From: Ignavibacteria bacterium
GTDB taxonomy: Bacteria > Bacteroidota > Ignavibacteria > Tepidaquicellales > Tepidaquicellaceae
NCBI GenBank assembly: GCA_019187405.1
Contig: JABAQZ010000001.1
Coordinates: forward strand, 1 to 64,000
DNA: 64,000 bases
Reading direction: 5' to 3'
In this document: positions 42,869 to 51,339 of the stretch, in pieces
Layout: every line of letters begins with the position of its first letter
Position numbering within the stretch: position 1 is the first letter of the stretch
Notes under the pieces: model-generated
Told to the model about the DNA's origin: nothing
Seen by the model: only the letters and a program-made list of their open reading frames with translations
Database searches by the model: none
Program-made: the position numbers and the translations under genes

Positions 42869-44953
42869 ATGAAAGCTTTAATACTAAACTTTGCAATTTT
42901 ACTTATGTGTGCGGGACTGGCATTCTCCGCACCAAGACCAAAAATATTTAACCATGCCACAAATCCGGAAATGATAAAAACCCTGCCGGAACTGGTTCCT
43001 GATTCCTGCGTTGCTTCAGGTCTCGTTGCAGTCGGAAAAGGACAGTTTGTCTATTTGTCCGCTTTTAATTTCGGCGATACTTCTTCCATTTTAAGTCAGA
43101 CTTGGTCTTTTGTATCGAGACCAACTGGTTCAAATGCAACTCTTGTGAATATTCCTTCACTGAACTGGTACAAATTCAAAGCTGACTCAATGGGCACATT
43201 TGAAATCAGGGTTTCAATTACTACTTCTACCGGCACAAAAGACACTACAATGAAAATCTTTTCCACAAAGTATGTCGGAACCGGTAATTTCGAAGGAGTC
43301 CCTGCCCTTTATCCCAACTGTATGGTCTGCCACTCGGGCAATCCGAACTTTGCAGACATATTCAACAGATGGAAAGTCAGCGGACACGCAAACATTTTTA
43401 GATATGAAATTGACAGCGGAGCTGCATATTACAATACAAGCTGCATGAAGTGTCATACCGTCGGCTATGACCATAACACAGTTACCGACAATAACGGATT
43501 CGATGATGTTGCGCGAAGAGTAGGATGGACTTATACAGCTCCTCCAAATCCTGGAAAATGGGACAGTTTAAAAACCCGTTTCCCTGAACTCGTGGCTTTT
43601 GCAAGCATCGGCTGCGAAAACTGTCACGGCGCGGGATTCTCTCATGCATCAAACGGCGGTGATACAAACAGAATCGAAATTTCATATAATTCAGGTATGT
43701 GCGGCAACTGTCACGGCGAACCGTGGAGACACAGCAAATTCCAGCAATGGGAAAATTCACTCCACTCTGAAGCTGTATTCGAAGGAAGAACCGTAAGCGC
43801 AAGCCAGAGAAATACACTTAATGATTGCAATAGATGTCACGATGGAGAATCTTATGTTGATTTTACTAAAAACCGTATTGGGAAACTTAATCTTACAACA
43901 GCCGATCAGCAGATGATTTCATGTCAGGCATGTCACGATCCGCACGGCAACAGCAATGAGTATTCTCTTAGAAGCATTGCCACAGGAGCGGATACTCTGG
44001 CAAACGGAGTTTCATTTGCTAATGCCGGAACAGGCAAGGTCTGCATGACTTGTCACATGGCAAGAAGAAATACTTCCACTTACGTTACTGCAGGCGGCTC
44101 GCTTACCAGCACCTGGGGTCCGCACCACAGCGTTCAGGCTGACGTGCTTCTCGGTACTAATGCCGCTACTTTCGGCTTCCCTTACATAACTGGATCTCAT
44201 AAAAACATCGAAAACACATGCGCCACCTGTCACATGGCGGAAATAACGGACACAGGCACAGTAACAAGAGACAAGGTCGGAGGTCACTCAATGAATCTTC
44301 ATTATGAAGCTACTAATTATGATCATACCGAAGGATGTCAGAGTTGTCATGCAGGCGTTACTTCTTTCGAACAGTTCATGGCTCCGCAGGACTTTGACGG
44401 TGACGGAACAACCGAAGACTGGATGAGTGAAGTTAACGGCTGTCTTACAAATTTAAGAATTGATCTGCCTCCGAGAGGAGTTGACTCTGTTGCCTGGCAA
44501 CTCATTGCTCAGGATTCATCCAATCTTAATTTAAGAAAAGCTTACTGGAATTATCTGCTAATTACCGAAGACCAGAGCGCCGGAATGCATAATCCGTTCT
44601 TTACCATTCAGGTATTACTGACATCGAGGAATTATACCGTGGGAATTCAGCAAGCAGGAACGGAAATTCCGGGTGTTTATGAATTATCCCAAAACTATCC
44701 GAACCCGTTCAATCCGACAACAAAAATAGATGTTTCAATACCAAAGACAGAACAGGTTACGCTTAAAATATATGACATAACAGGAAGAGAAATCAAAACT
44801 CTTATTAACAATCAGACATTGCTTGCCGGGAAATATACGGTTGACTGGAATTCACTCGATAATAATGGACTGCAGGTCTCTACGGGGGTTTATTTCTACA
44901 GGATCACTGCAGAAGGTTTTGTTACCACGAAGAAAATGATGCTGATCAAATAA
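42869..44953 (+). CDS. Nine-heme cytochrome c with T9SS type A sorting domain
   Basis: A 694-residue exported protein. The signal peptide is about 1-20 (ending AFS-AP). Residues about 45-135 look like an immunoglobulin-like or PKD-like beta domain. Nine CxxCH heme sites follow, with first cysteines at 151, 192, 249, 278, 320, 352, 392, 451 and 490. A linker leads to a T9SS type A domain at about 606-694 (ELSQNYPNPFNPTTKIDVSIP, ITGREIKTLI, VYFYRITAEGF, KKMMLIK). T9SS export would place the hemes at the cell surface, suiting extracellular electron transfer. The partner is not seen, and a detoxification or nitrite-type role cannot be excluded. Confidence 0.9.
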   Translation: MKALILNFAILLMCAGLAFSAPRPKIFNHATNPEMIKTLPELVPDSCVASGLVAVGKGQFVYLSAFNFGDTSSILSQTWSFVSRPTGSNATLVNIPSLNWYKFKADSMGTFEIRVSITTSTGTKDTTMKIFSTKYVGTGNFEGVPALYPNCMVCHSGNPNFADIFNRWKVSGHANIFRYEIDSGAAYYNTSCMKCHTVGYDHNTVTDNNGFDDVARRVGWTYTAPPNPGKWDSLKTRFPELVAFASIGCENCHGAGFSHASNGGDTNRIEISYNSGMCGNCHGEPWRHSKFQQWENSLHSEAVFEGRTVSASQRNTLNDCNRCHDGESYVDFTKNRIGKLNLTTADQQMISCQACHDPHGNSNEYSLRSIATGADTLANGVSFANAGTGKVCMTCHMARRNTSTYVTAGGSLTSTWGPHHSVQADVLLGTNAATFGFPYITGSHKNIENTCATCHMAEITDTGTVTRDKVGGHSMNLHYEATNYDHTEGCQSCHAGVTSFEQFMAPQDFDGDGTTEDWMSEVNGCLTNLRIDLPPRGVDSVAWQLIAQDSSNLNLRKAYWNYLLITEDQSAGMHNPFFTIQVLLTSRNYTVGIQQAGTEIPGVYELSQNYPNPFNPTTKIDVSIPKTEQVTLKIYDITGREIKTLINNQTLLAGKYTVDWNSLDNNGLQVSTGVYFYRITAEGFVTTKKMMLIK

Positions 44954-45500: not shown

Positions 45501-47144
45501 TTAATAAATCCCCGTTTCGCCTTCGGTATTATCTTTTTCCATTGATGCACGTTCCAGGCTCCTGATCATTATTGTGACTGAACCCGTTCTGTAATCGTCT
45601 TCATTATACTGAATTTCAACCGGCATGTCATAAATAAGCTTAACCTTCTTTCCGGGTGAGAGAGTGTTTTTTGAAAAATTGAAGCTCAAGTCGCCAAGCA
45701 GTGACTTCTTTATATTGCCGAGATCTCCCGCCATTCCCTTTGAAACGGTGAACGAAGAAAATCCGCCGAGACATATATCCTGTTCATCTGCATTATCGGT
45801 TATAAGCCTGAAGCATTTTTTCTTCAGTATTAAATAAATAAGCAGAGCAGCGGCAAGCAGTACTGCCGCAATAATTCCGATCAGCACAAATAATCTCCAA
45901 GGTCCGTATTTCATTCTGATCTCGAGAGGAATTTTCGTAATAATCTTTTTGTCTTTTAACACCGGCTGAAAAATCTCAGGAACTGTCTGCAGTGCAAACA
46001 ATTCCCTGAACGAATTCACATACTCCTGATCAAGCAATATGTCAACGTCGCTTACCGTCAGCACAAGATCTCCGCCGATTGCAAAATCTTCTTTGAATAT
46101 CGTATTGAAAGAAAAATTCGGGGTTATTTCAGGCAGATTAAAAATTACGGAAAATCCCGTTACCTCTCCTTCGGGAGAAACATTGCTTACTGTCGAAGGC
46201 GATATGGTCTGCGTTCCGAGCGACTTTACCGAGTAATCCGTCGAAGTGAAATTCTCAAGCCCGACATTAAGCCTTGCGCTTCTTATTATGTATGGATACA
46301 AATTCGATTTTAAAGAAAGATCGTTAAATGTTTCTCTGACCTTTTCGCCTTCTTCAAAACCGTAACCGCGCAGGTATGATCCGTCATAATAAAGCTTTCC
46401 TTCGGTAACCCTGCTTTGAGTGATTCTCGGTCTAAGGACAATCGTTCCCATGTCAAGAGGTTTAAGCGTAATCGCTTTCTGCTTTATTCCTGCTCCGCGA
46501 AGTATTGAATCGAAATAAACAAGATCTTGCTGCGAGAGAGTTTTTGCCGAATGGACTATGCCGTATGCTACAAATCCTTTTGCCGTGTCGCCGCCGTCTA
46601 TCGCCTTTTCAGGAAAAGGATACAACAGAATTTTCTGAATCGCCGGATCGCTGCGGAGCTTATTGTAAAAACCCAAAGTATTCTGAAACGACGAATCGCC
46701 GCTTCCCGAATTGTCATTTATATTGTCGGTAATCAGCCAAATAATTCCCGTCTTCCCTTCCAGCGCGGATATGCCATCGTTAAGAGCTTCAATCAGATCG
46801 GTTGTTCCCGTCCTGTTGTCATTGCCGATCATCATTTCAAACTTGCCCATTACCTCGTCCGGATTAAACTGCCCGGCGTTGCCTTTGAAAATTACTTTGG
46901 GAGATGAAATGTTTCTCTTTGCATCGGTTTTTGTAAAAAGCATTACTTCAGCATTGTCATTTTTGTTTATTGAATTTTTAATCAGTGCTTTGCTGAAAGT
47001 TTTGAAATTACTTTGCGGAGAAAGGTAATAAGGCGACATGCTGCCTGAATTGTCAAAAAGAAATATAAAATTGTTTTCCTTTTGCGCGTAAGTTTCAGTA
47101 AACAAAAAAATCAATACGAGTAATTTCAGCAAAAAAATTTTCAT
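45501..47144 (-). CDS. Membrane-anchored von Willebrand factor A domain protein
   Basis: A 547-residue protein with a signal peptide (about 1-20) and an extracytoplasmic vWA domain (about 24-215). The MIDAS motif FDNSGSMS, the later TGTTDLIEAL threonine, and IIWLITDN aspartate are all present. A beta-rich middle region follows, then a membrane segment at about 418-440 (LIGIIAAVLLAAALLIYLIL) and a cytoplasmic tail of about 105 residues. Metal-dependent protein binding outside with signalling or anchoring inside is the plausible role. It follows the propeller gene immediately (47145), so the two form one unit. No MoxR ATPase, the common partner of vWA proteins, is nearby. Confidence 0.78.
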   Translation of the reverse strand: MKIFLLKLLVLIFLFTETYAQKENNFIFLFDNSGSMSPYYLSPQSNFKTFSKALIKNSINKNDNAEVMLFTKTDAKRNISSPKVIFKGNAGQFNPDEVMGKFEMMIGNDNRTGTTDLIEALNDGISALEGKTGIIWLITDNINDNSGSGDSSFQNTLGFYNKLRSDPAIQKILLYPFPEKAIDGGDTAKGFVAYGIVHSAKTLSQQDLVYFDSILRGAGIKQKAITLKPLDMGTIVLRPRITQSRVTEGKLYYDGSYLRGYGFEEGEKVRETFNDLSLKSNLYPYIIRSARLNVGLENFTSTDYSVKSLGTQTISPSTVSNVSPEGEVTGFSVIFNLPEITPNFSFNTIFKEDFAIGGDLVLTVSDVDILLDQEYVNSFRELFALQTVPEIFQPVLKDKKIITKIPLEIRMKYGPWRLFVLIGIIAAVLLAAALLIYLILKKKCFRLITDNADEQDICLGGFSSFTVSKGMAGDLGNIKKSLLGDLSFNFSKNTLSPGKKVKLIYDMPVEIQYNEDDYRTGSVTIMIRSLERASMEKDNTEGETGIY

Positions 47145-48398
47145 TTATATGTGAATGTTAAGTTTATCGTTTGTAAATACTTTCAGCAATCCCGAAGTTG
47201 TAAGTACTGCAATTTCGTTCCCCGAAATCAATGCTGAGACTATTTCCTCCGATTTATTTTCATTTTCCGAAGATATGATACTGCTTTCGGCTTCCTGAAA
47301 TCTGTTGAGATTACAAAATACGATTTTGTTTTTCTGGGAAACAACAAGAACGTTTTTGCTGATGCATTCTATTTTATTTTCAGATTCATCATCAAATCTA
47401 AACACCTGCATACCGCCGGCTTTAAAAAATTTCCATCCGTCAATCGTCCCCGTAAAAAGATTATCAGCAAATCCTCCGGCAGAATTCAGATAAGGATCTT
47501 TTATTCCCGTGTATCTGAATTTGTAATTGTCCGAAGGCAGATCCAGATAATAAAGCTCGTTTGCAGAAGTTGTCAGATACAATCTGCCGTTTGAAAAAAA
47601 CATGATTGAATTTTCGTTGGTTTCAATTCCCGTATCAAAAATTTCTCCCGAACTTTTTCCAAAATCATATTCTATCAGCTTTTCATCCGAAAGCAGATAT
47701 GATTTACCAAAAGCAATACAGAGCGAATCGCTTAGAAAACTCCGCACTTTAAAATTAAATTCTTTTATTCCATGATTTTCATTGAGTCTTATTGCTTTGA
47801 AAGATGCATTTCCCGAACCCGGGTCATACTCGCTGAATACCAGTTTATCTTCGTGACGGTTTAGATTGCTCCAGATATATTGATTATCGCTGGAGTTGTA
47901 TATTACTTGTTTTGAAATACCGATCTTTCCCAGCTCGTAAATTTTTTTCAGTGAATTAATGTAAATTCTGTTCTCAAATACAAGCCCCGTTTTCTCGAAC
48001 GTTTCGTTTTCAAAAAAAATGCTTTCGTTTATTTTTCCAGTAAATCTATCCGTAAGAAAAATCTTACCCGATTTTGATGATAGTATGAAATAGCGGTTGT
48101 TTTCCAAAATGGAATTTAAAAATTCATCGCCGAGGTCAATGGCGTATTTTATTCTGAATCCTTTTTCAATGCCTTCGGGAAACTTCAGTCCGCTTTCAAA
48201 GTATGAGCTTAGTCCTGAATTTCCTTTATAAAAAGAATTTATCTTTGAATTAAGAATTTTCTTTTCCCTGCTCTCTTCGATTTCACCCACATCAATTTTT
48301 TTGTTTTCTTTATCCAGCTCAATAATAATCCTTTCTTCTTCCGGATTTTGCTTCTTCTCCTGCTCGTCGCCGAAATCTATGATTATTCTATCAGGCAT
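47145..48398 (-). CDS. Cytoplasmic PQQ-like beta-propeller protein, unrecognised family
   Basis: About 417 residues from the ATG at 48398; an ATG at 48407 adds three. The N-terminal 75 residues are acidic and lysine-rich with two similar pieces, RIIIDFGDE and RIIIELDKE. The remainder is propeller-like, with repeated strand patterns such as NRYFILSSKSGKIFLTDRFTGKI and NRIYINSLKKIYELG, similar to PQQ/WD-type blades. There is no signal peptide. Its stop abuts the start of the vWA gene. I recognise no family name. A cytoplasmic partner for the vWA protein's internal tail is an inference from adjacency only. Confidence 0.55.
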   Translation of the reverse strand: MPDRIIIDFGDEQEKKQNPEEERIIIELDKENKKIDVGEIEESREKKILNSKINSFYKGNSGLSSYFESGLKFPEGIEKGFRIKYAIDLGDEFLNSILENNRYFILSSKSGKIFLTDRFTGKINESIFFENETFEKTGLVFENRIYINSLKKIYELGKIGISKQVIYNSSDNQYIWSNLNRHEDKLVFSEYDPGSGNASFKAIRLNENHGIKEFNFKVRSFLSDSLCIAFGKSYLLSDEKLIEYDFGKSSGEIFDTGIETNENSIMFFSNGRLYLTTSANELYYLDLPSDNYKFRYTGIKDPYLNSAGGFADNLFTGTIDGWKFFKAGGMQVFRFDDESENKIECISKNVLVVSQKNKIVFCNLNRFQEAESSIISSENENKSEEIVSALISGNEIAVLTTSGLLKVFTNDKLNIHI

Positions 48399-48455: not shown

Positions 48456-49385
48456 CTAACCGCTCAGCTCTTTCGGCAAATAACCCTTAGCCGCTTTTTC
48501 AAGTCTTTCGTTAATTGCAACTCCGAGTCCGCTTTCTTCCGTTTTTTTACAAACTATAAAATCAATATTCATTTCATCAAGATTTCTCAAATCGGAAAAC
48601 AAATTCAATGCAATTTCTCTGCTGTCTTTGTAACCGGAAAAATCGAGAAGACCGATTTTCCTGTCGTTGATATGCTTAACTTCGTCAAAACTTTTTACAA
48701 AATACATCGGCTTTTCAGGCGCATAATGAACCTTCAGCATTCCGGGAGATATGTTTTTTTTGGAAAATCCCGAAATTGTTTTGCCTATGACTTTTTCTAT
48801 CTCCTCTTTTGTTATGAATCCGTTCCGCAAAATTTCAACCCCTTCTTCCGTAAAATTTACCACCGTAGATTCAATTCCCAATACGCTTTTTCCTCCGTCA
48901 AGTATGTAATTAATTTTTCCTCCAAGCTCTTTCATTACATCTTCTGCGCATACGGGAGAGATTCCCGAAAATCTGTTTGCAGAAGGAGCGCAGACAGGTA
49001 TTCCCGATTCCTCGAGCACCTTTCTGAAAAGTTCATGCGACGGTACTCTTAAAGCAACAAATTTACTTCCAGAAGTAATAATGTCCGGTATGATTTTCTT
49101 TTTTTTGACAATATAGCTTATAGGTCCCGGAGAAAATTTTTCAGCAAGTTTGTAAACATCATCGGGAATATCTTCGGCGTACTTTTCAAAGTCGGTTACA
49201 TTTTTCACATGCACAATCAACGGATTGAAACGAGGTCTTTGCTTCGCTTCAAAAATCTTCAGCGCCGCATCTGCATCGAGCGCATTTGCCCCCAGCCCGT
49301 AAACCGTTTCCGTCGGAAGCGCTACAATGCTTCCTCCAAGCAATTCCTTTACTGCTGTCTCGATATTTTTTATAATCTGAGTCAA
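48456..49385 (-). CDS. Threonylcarbamoyl-AMP synthase, Sua5 type
   Basis: A 309-residue enzyme that makes threonylcarbamoyl-AMP from threonine, bicarbonate and ATP for t6A37 modification of ANN-reading tRNAs. The YrdC domain shows GSIVALPTETVYGLGANAL, KQRPRFNPLIVHV, and a KFSPGP-type substrate loop, then SKFVALRVPSH and CAPSANRFSG. The C-terminal 100 residues (ISPGMLKVHYAPEKP onward) are the Sua5 domain, absent from the shorter TsaC form. It shares an ATGA start/stop overlap with the upstream membrane gene. Confidence 0.93.
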   Translation of the reverse strand: MTQIIKNIETAVKELLGGSIVALPTETVYGLGANALDADAALKIFEAKQRPRFNPLIVHVKNVTDFEKYAEDIPDDVYKLAEKFSPGPISYIVKKKKIIPDIITSGSKFVALRVPSHELFRKVLEESGIPVCAPSANRFSGISPVCAEDVMKELGGKINYILDGGKSVLGIESTVVNFTEEGVEILRNGFITKEEIEKVIGKTISGFSKKNISPGMLKVHYAPEKPMYFVKSFDEVKHINDRKIGLLDFSGYKDSREIALNLFSDLRNLDEMNIDFIVCKKTEESGLGVAINERLEKAAKGYLPKELSG

Positions 49386-49846: not shown

Positions 49847-49977
49847 GCGTTAAAATAACTTATCGGAATTTTAAAAAGAATGTGATTTGCTGTGCCGATA
49901 TGACGTTTCAATGCAAAAATGTATCTGACTTTCTTAATGACACTTATTGTATTTTTTCAATTCTTTATATTAAAGCC

Positions 49978-51339
49978 GTGTCAAAGTTGAAATCAAAATA
50001 CGTTTGTCAGAATTGCGGATTTTCTTCACTGCGCTGGAGCGGAAAATGTCCCGAGTGCGGTAACTGGAGTACAATGTCAGAAGAGATTATCAGTATTGAT
50101 AAAAGAAAATCTCCATCTGGCAGTGTTAAGCTGAACAACGGAACGTACAATCTTATCACTGACGTTTCAGCCGAGCCTGAGCAAAGGACAAAAACTCAGA
50201 TAGATGAGCTTGACCGAGTCCTCGGAGGTGGAATCGTTAAAGGCTCTGTCATATTGATAGGAGGCGATCCGGGAATTGGTAAATCCACACTGATGCTTCA
50301 GATTGCCGATAAAGTCAGAGACAGAAAAATACTTTACGTAAGCGGTGAAGAATCTGCAGTTCAGATAAAAATGCGCGCAGACAGATTGAAATTTCACCTT
50401 AATAATTTCTACATATTATCGGAAACCAATCTTGACATCATTCAGGCTGTAATTGAAAAAGAACAGCCTGACATCGTTGTAATTGATTCCATTCAAACAG
50501 TATCGAGACCTGATCTGGAAAGCGCGCCCGGCACCGTTACGCAGCTTCGCGAATCTACTTCGCTTCTGATGCACATTTCAAAAAAGTTCGGAGTGTCTGT
50601 TTTCATCGTAGGACATATAACCAAGGAAGGCGTCATTGCCGGACCGAAAGTACTTGAACACATGGTGGACGTAGTTCTGCAGTTTGAAGGAGAAAGAACT
50701 CACTCATACAGAATTCTCCGCGGCATAAAAAACAGATTTGGCTCTACAAATGAAATCGGTATTTTTGAAATGTCAGACGGCGGATTAAAAGAAGTAAAAA
50801 ATCCGAGCGAAGTTTTTCTCTCGCAGAGAAATTACGGAGCATCGGGATGCGTTATTTCTGCATCCATCGAGGGAACGAGGCCTCTGCTTATTGAAGTGCA
50901 GGCGCTTGCATCAGCTACAAGCTTTGGCATTCCGCAGAGAACATCTATGGGTTATGATTACAAAAAGCTAAGCATCATCATCGCCGTTCTTGAAAAAAAG
51001 CTCGGACTTTTTCTTAACAAGTATGATATTTTTCTTAACATTGCCGGCGGAGTCAAAATTGACGAACCTGCGATAGACCTTGCCGTTGCCATGAGCATAT
51101 ACTCTTCATTCAGAGATATTCCCGCCGATTCAGATACGGTAGCGCTTGGGGAGATAGGATTGTCCGGAGAGGTGAGAACCATTTCATACATTGACAAAAG
51201 AATTTCCGAAGCATCAAAACTCGGTTTTAAAAAAATTATTTTGCCGAAAGGAAATCTGAAAAACATTAATCGGAAAAATTCCGGCATTGAAATAATAGGC
51301 GTTGAAAGGATTAAAGATGCAGTTGATGCGTTATTCTGA
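49978..51339 (+). CDS. radA: DNA repair protein RadA (Sms)
   Basis: About 453 residues. The zinc motif CQNCGFSSLRWSGKCPECGNW starts near the N-terminus, followed by the RecA-like core with Walker A GGDPGIGKST and the RadA-specific KNRFGSTNEIG. The closing Lon-like domain (GGVKIDEPAIDLAVAMSI, ALGEIGLSGEVR) completes it. RadA helps branch migration and recombination, including during natural transformation. The preferred start is GTG 49978; TTG 49987 is close behind. An ATG at 49882 would add 32 residues before the zinc finger, which is atypical. Confidence 0.93.
   Translation: MSKLKSKYVCQNCGFSSLRWSGKCPECGNWSTMSEEIISIDKRKSPSGSVKLNNGTYNLITDVSAEPEQRTKTQIDELDRVLGGGIVKGSVILIGGDPGIGKSTLMLQIADKVRDRKILYVSGEESAVQIKMRADRLKFHLNNFYILSETNLDIIQAVIEKEQPDIVVIDSIQTVSRPDLESAPGTVTQLRESTSLLMHISKKFGVSVFIVGHITKEGVIAGPKVLEHMVDVVLQFEGERTHSYRILRGIKNRFGSTNEIGIFEMSDGGLKEVKNPSEVFLSQRNYGASGCVISASIEGTRPLLIEVQALASATSFGIPQRTSMGYDYKKLSIIIAVLEKKLGLFLNKYDIFLNIAGGVKIDEPAIDLAVAMSIYSSFRDIPADSDTVALGEIGLSGEVRTISYIDKRISEASKLGFKKIILPKGNLKNINRKNSGIEIIGVERIKDAVDALF

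Follow-up and report, generated by a model that had tools for sequence, protein, structure and literature searches.

Two abutting genes, one for a vWA membrane protein and one for a cytoplasmic propeller, lie on the minus strand of the window, a stretch of 64,000 nucleotides from an Ignavibacteria bacterium. We propose, with a probability of about 55%, that this pair serves an FtsZl1 (Tubulin_2) envelope system as its trans-membrane arm, to which the propeller would have been added as a cytoplasmic adaptor. The proposal builds on topology motifs, folds, conservation, co-occurrence and one gene cluster in a distant genome (G115), from which the contacts, the use of GTP and the direction of signalling are inferred. 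Judged from the sequences, the pair would be a new version of the predicted FtsZl1-vWA system, which has itself been in print since 2010 (PMC2875224).

Architecture of the gene pair

According to the ORF calls, the gene for a 154-aa protein on the minus strand of the window is followed, in transcriptional order, by a Sua5/TsaC-type gene, then the propeller gene (48398-47145) and the vWA gene (47144-45501). The propeller stop codon occupies positions 47147-47145 and the vWA ATG follows at 47144 with zero gap, both on the minus strand, which confirms the abutting arrangement reported in the preliminary description. The Sua5/TsaC-type gene is probably a housekeeping neighbour outside the system. 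The features of the locus are as follows:

45501..47144, minus strand: vWA membrane protein gene, 547 aa (ORF; homologs in 24/29 family genomes; structure model)
47085..47144, minus strand: signal-peptide-like N-terminus of the vWA protein, residues 1-20 (hydrophobic helix 2-18 in the model)
46497..47075, minus strand: vWA domain with MIDAS D31, S33, S35, T115 and D140, residues about 24-216 (alignment, model, fold match)
45825..45899, minus strand: transmembrane helix, residues 416-440 (model)
45555..45821, minus strand: cytoplasmic beta-rich tail as modelled, residues 442-530 (pLDDT about 72-86)
47145..48398, minus strand: cytoplasmic propeller gene, 417 aa (ORF, conserved start, structure model, fold matches)
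48279..48398, minus strand: disordered acidic N-terminus of the propeller protein, residues 1-40, with two motif copies DRIIIDF/ERIIIEL (alignment, model, motif scan)
47169..48155, minus strand: propeller domain, residues 82-410 (model, fold matches)
48456..49385, minus strand: Sua5/TsaC-type gene, conserved upstream neighbour (Pfam; 20/21 neighbourhoods)

The Pfam VWA match to the 547-aa protein was weak (E 0.00066, under the curated cut-off), and its AlphaFold2 model reached a mean pLDDT of 72 and a pTM of 0.52. Over residues about 22-217 the model matched vWA folds (VIA Z up to 9.4, 140 aligned, rmsd 3.3), and the MIDAS residues D31, S33, S35, T115 and D140 were invariant in 20 out of 20 aligned family members. 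Residues 220-410 were poorly modelled, with pLDDT mostly 45-65. In the model, lysines lie on the C-terminal side of the helix at 416-440 and a beta-rich tail comes next. According to the positive-inside rule, which is established knowledge, these lysines place the tail in the cytoplasm and the vWA domain in the periplasm. Together with the model and the invariant MIDAS, they support the topology originally read from the letters alone, namely an outer MIDAS domain, one membrane helix and an inner tail. In one relative (G004), the vWA gene (L057 8272-9905, minus strand) was split into two ORFs, perhaps by an assembly error.

The conserved start of the propeller is the ATG at 48398, which yields a 417-aa protein without a signal-peptide-like start. 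Its model, with a mean pLDDT of 86 for the whole protein, places about 31 strands with high confidence in residues 82-409 and predicts disorder at residues 1-40. The best Foldseek matches were BamB and designed eight-bladed propellers (E about 1e-12), and VIA gave Z values of 28-34 against propellers of the eight-bladed kind (Rv3035, YxaL), including Z 33.8 for Rv3035 with 338 aligned residues and an rmsd of 2.6. These matches indicate that the modelled partner has a propeller fold, probably an eight-bladed one. Pfam and NCBIfam scans of the partner reported no BamB-type family, the likeness to BamB being structural. The motif [DE][KR]I[IV]I[DE][FL] was present twice within the first 70 residues in 13 out of 16 aligned partners and in 0 other ORFs of the motif-scanned set; the same expression matched the ~1180-aa protein encoded downstream in most relatives 27 times in 34 copies, never twice in the first 70 residues. 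The cytoplasmic propeller with an acidic, repeated N-terminus that had been described at the outset is thus borne out by the model, the fold matches and the doubled motif.

Among the ORFs flanking the pair (37-56 kb), Pfam named no MoxR, as had also been noted before, and the sole AAA-type match was a RadA-like protein (49882-51339). Nor did Pfam name a GTPase, a kinase or an OmpA-family protein in these scanned ORFs. The defence and phage libraries gave zero matches for the vWA protein and the propeller, and the defence library gave zero for Tubulin_2. The next long ORF downstream of the vWA gene in the window genome encodes a multiheme cytochrome on the opposite strand (42869-44953, plus strand). 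This gene is convergent with the pair, carries a type IX secretion sorting tail and occupies the site where most relatives carry the ~1180-aa outer-membrane-type gene.

Conservation of the pair and co-occurrence with Tubulin_2

The main sample consisted of 59 genomes, the window genome and its relatives, 29 of them from its own Ignavibacteria family. The vWA protein was present in 24 out of 59 genomes, all of its own family (24/29), and was not found, even with a profile, in any of the 30 sampled genomes from the rest of the order and class, two matches with E of at least 0.1 being uncounted. The propeller was identified in 20/29 family genomes; this count comprises 20 strong profile matches and leaves aside many weak ones (E 2e-5 and weaker), which resemble generic propellers. 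All five genomes of genus g8 carried vWA without the propeller, and G024 (67% complete) carried the propeller without vWA. A diverged propeller in genus g8 was considered and rejected, the candidate, a 417-aa ORF beside Tubulin_2 in G007, being an MFS-type transporter by sequence with no propeller-profile match. In this genome, the MFS-type transporter and a 97-aa cysteine-containing ORF are found between the SDR gene and Tubulin_2 (L134 10920-12439, minus strand).

Gene order was compared across the window and 20 further loci, 21 neighbourhoods in all. The propeller was directly upstream of vWA in 16 of them (including G004, with vWA broken in two). Among the remaining five, it was missing in the four from g8, and G015 had vWA without it, a propeller fragment being located at the end of another contig, away from vWA. 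The pairs of G016 and G017 were adjacent too, by coordinates. The pair was therefore adjacent in 18/24 vWA genomes and in 18 out of the 19 genomes carrying both genes, that is, the genes are not separated in most relatives, even with propellers that have diverged to 32% identity within the family. Conservation of the pair, which the preliminary description had left to be checked, extends to one Ignavibacteria family, with Sua5 upstream in 20/21 neighbourhoods and the ~1180-aa gene as the other flank in 17/21. The proposed two-gene unit holds as regards adjacency; otherwise it is incomplete: a third gene lies downstream in most relatives, and genus g8 lacks the propeller.

Tubulin_2 was detected in 22/59 genomes, all in the family. 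The window genome carries it at G000:C11:49471-50526 (E 4.7e-72; full ORF 1134 aa). Across the 59 genomes, both vWA and Tubulin_2 were present in 21, vWA only in 3 (G013, G018 and G026), Tubulin_2 only in 1 (G024) and neither in 34, an agreement of 55/59. Fisher tests gave p values of 8e-12 for the 59 genomes and 0.007 within the family, both of which ignore shared ancestry. The two genes are unlinked in the window genome, with vWA on contig G000:C4 and Tubulin_2 on G000:C11, and vWA appeared in 0 out of ten family Tubulin_2 neighbourhoods examined. Due to these separate contigs and the 0/10 count, a single predicted operon with vWA and Tubulin_2 is restricted to the G115 homolog and does not apply to the window genome. 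The neighbours of Tubulin_2 in the window genome, with names read off the sequences, are EF-P-like, AccB-like, AccC-like, a small membrane protein and SDR. The small membrane protein encoded beside Tubulin_2 was present in 23/29 family genomes, in nearly the same pattern; it was absent from G002, G013, G014, G018, G023 and G025 and had one weak match outside the family (E 0.004). G013 and G018 kept vWA and propeller but had neither Tubulin_2 nor the small membrane protein.

In a 27-row tree built from the ~1180-aa protein, vWA, propeller and Tubulin_2 were jointly absent at two separate places, G014 and the group of G023 and G025. G015 groups with the latter two and retains all three genes. 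The genomes of G014, G023 and G025 are small (2.2-2.7 Mb) and the joint absences could reflect a general loss of genes, so they give moderate support to the link.

When the vWA profile was run against 395 genomes of the phylum, three matched: the window genome, one family member and G115, which belongs to another class (E 4.8e-25). The 510-aa protein of G115 aligned to profile residues 23-486 (hhalign E 2.8e-27), including the membrane helix and the start of the tail, and a homolog was present in 1/61 genomes of its class. Gene order in G115 was lipoprotein-like (238 aa), 531-aa CPFC-motif protein, vWA, 133-aa membrane protein, Tubulin_2 and zinc-ribbon TPR protein, which puts vWA two genes upstream of Tubulin_2 (PF13809, 1208 aa, E 1.2e-51). 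No propeller homolog was detected in G115 (the 531-aa CPFC-motif neighbour gave hhalign E 0.16) and, consequently, recurrence of the pair is limited to the family in these data. The MIDAS of the G115 protein (L118 8138-9670, minus strand) is degenerate, with QNSGW for DNSGS and N for D140, yet the gene is encoded with Tubulin_2. Equivalence of the 133-aa membrane protein to the small membrane protein of the family was no more than hinted at (hhalign probability 9%, E 0.0035) and was uncounted.

Pairwise alignments, from which row L167 was left out, were used to compare the Tubulin_2 proteins, as the tree had long branches and was unused. Those of the family and of G115 aligned over about 1100 residues (E 1.5e-48); for the other Tubulin_2 of the phylum, significant alignment was confined to the N-terminal part (E 5.5e-14 or weaker). 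Their C-termini differ, with a weak SHOCT match in the window genome (L131 7225-10629, minus strand) and GYF_2 in G115 (L118 4032-7658, minus strand). Tubulin_2 was above the cut-off in 10/395 genomes of the phylum. In five further phylum loci (G401, G394, G268, G277 and G332), no vWA of this family was found beside it, and G277 had a different vWA protein in that position (Pfam VWA_2, E 2.5e-16).

Relation to described systems

FtsZl1 (Tubulin_2) was described by Makarova and Koonin in 2010, who proposed a role in membrane remodelling (PMC2875224). According to their account of the predicted operons, most hold a vWA gene, with the MIDAS mostly intact, GTPase and kinase genes are often included and OmpA-type proteins are found in several genomes (PMC2875224). 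A 2015 paper cites this link (PMC5898192), and a 2023 paper considers Tubulin_2 a divergent FtsZ-like group (PMC9871819). Across the parts of these three papers that deal with FtsZl1, its function is predicted only, as proposed in 2010 (PMC2875224, PMC5898192, PMC9871819). The preliminary description had known of no system with the present pairing. This stands for the vWA-propeller combination, which, with or without Tubulin_2, was in no paper among the literature matches listed. It does not stand for the vWA protein, whose G115 homolog lies in a Tubulin_2 cluster and whose association with FtsZl1 was predicted in 2010 (PMC2875224). The earlier interpretation is, in sum, partly supported and the observation behind it confirmed.

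As in the predicted FtsZl1-vWA system, at least as outlined in 2010, the vWA protein is membrane-associated, has an intact MIDAS and is co-present with Tubulin_2, also in the window genome, and the full-length G115 homolog shares a gene cluster with Tubulin_2. Unlike that system, the family carries vWA and Tubulin_2 at separate loci, the flanking ORFs scanned include no GTPase, kinase or OmpA partner, and the partner is a cytoplasmic propeller, a protein not met in the description of the operons given there.

BatA/BatB and other MoxR-vWA systems contain a vWA domain with a MIDAS, membrane-anchored or cytoplasmic, and the window protein has such a domain as well. The MoxR-vWA group also includes the conflict systems of the VMAP ternary type (PMC7159879). 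In contrast to BatA/B and to the VMAP ternary systems as outlined in that source, the pair has no MoxR among its scanned neighbours (37-56 kb), has a propeller partner and co-occurs with other genes. The partner resembles BamB, Rv3035 and YxaL in fold. BamB is an exported lipoprotein, whereas the partner has a conserved acidic MPDRIIIDF-type N-terminus and no hydrophobic leader or lipobox in 16 aligned rows.

Proposed role and competing explanations

In the arm model, the vWA protein would reside in the inner membrane with its MIDAS domain toward the periplasm. There, the domain would bind a periplasmic-side partner, as metal-dependent vWA domains do, possibly the ~1180-aa outer-membrane-type protein, which is a plausible candidate, albeit one often found in genomes that lack the pair. 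On the inner side, the beta-rich cytoplasmic tail would be the docking site of the propeller, whose two short acidic strand motifs might recruit another component, e.g., the 1134-aa Tubulin_2, and GTP-driven assembly in the cytoplasm would thereby be coupled to the envelope. All five genomes of genus g8 encode vWA, and four also Tubulin_2, without any propeller, so the propeller is probably accessory. We counted in favour of the arm model the joint absences, which occur although vWA and Tubulin_2 are unlinked in the family. Against it we counted the unlinked loci themselves, G013 and G018 without Tubulin_2, g8 without propeller, the degenerate MIDAS of G115 and the undetected propeller in that genome. 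The pair is a candidate bridge for FtsZl1: it would cross the membrane once, reach inward with a tail, bring in a cytoplasmic adaptor and offer short motifs open to binding assays. In an extended form, which we regard as unlikely, a continuous envelope-spanning linkage would run from the Tubulin_2 GTPase through the twin motifs of the eight-bladed propeller and the membrane vWA protein to a MIDAS gripping the outer-membrane protein with the SprA-like segment, coupling cytoskeleton to outer membrane. If true, such a linkage would answer reviewer 1 of the 2010 paper, whose objection was that the components belong to different compartments and that a cytoplasmic FtsZ-like protein cannot act together with periplasmic and outer-membrane partners (PMC2875224).

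The link to Tubulin_2 could also be incidental, with vWA acting as an inner-membrane regulator or adaptor of the ~1180-aa protein, a surface protein with a SprA motif that would be powered or gated together with a TonB-like protein. We consider this explanation possible though doubtful. In 17/21 neighbourhoods, the ~1180-aa gene follows vWA immediately downstream on the same strand, and a single-helix TonB-like protein comes next in many loci. The ~1180-aa protein has ~80 consecutive residues in common with SprA (hhalign E 1.8e-5) and begins with a signal-peptide-like segment. Pfam returned no convincing family for either protein, and the labels outer-membrane-type and TonB-like are putative ones drawn from their sequences. 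The ~1180-aa protein is not SprA itself, because the true SprA, of 2215 aa, exists as a separate gene. What weakens this explanation is the distribution of the ~1180-aa protein, which was present class-wide in 19/21 genomes tested, 16 of these 19 being without vWA and 13 of those from other families; the pair is thus not required by it. Moreover, the ~1180-aa gene is located elsewhere in the window genome, G006 and G018, and G023 and G025 keep it and the TonB-like gene without the pair. In G013, two genes separate it from vWA.

A stand-alone two-component envelope sensor, in which vWA would bind an outer metal-dependent ligand or matrix and the propeller would relay its state to a cytoplasmic target, would fit the intact MIDAS, the one membrane helix and the tail, the adjacency in 18/19 genomes with both genes, and the presence of the pair without Tubulin_2 in G013 and G018. 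The co-occurrence with Tubulin_2, the G115 gene cluster and the vWA of genus g8 without propeller argue against it, and we find it quite improbable. Far less credible is a neighbourhood kept by descent only, in which a stable Sua5 block would hold vWA and propeller together with no joint function: Sua5 is indeed upstream in 20/21 neighbourhoods, but the adjacency was kept though the propellers diverged to 32% identity, while the ~1180-aa neighbour moved in several genomes.

The ~1180-aa protein of the window genome (L081 7984-11595, minus strand; contig G000:C13) presents a highly conserved TPIQPEGNTQ-type motif, and the TonB-like protein of the same locus (L081 5119-6927, minus strand) has two similar cytoplasmic-side repeats.
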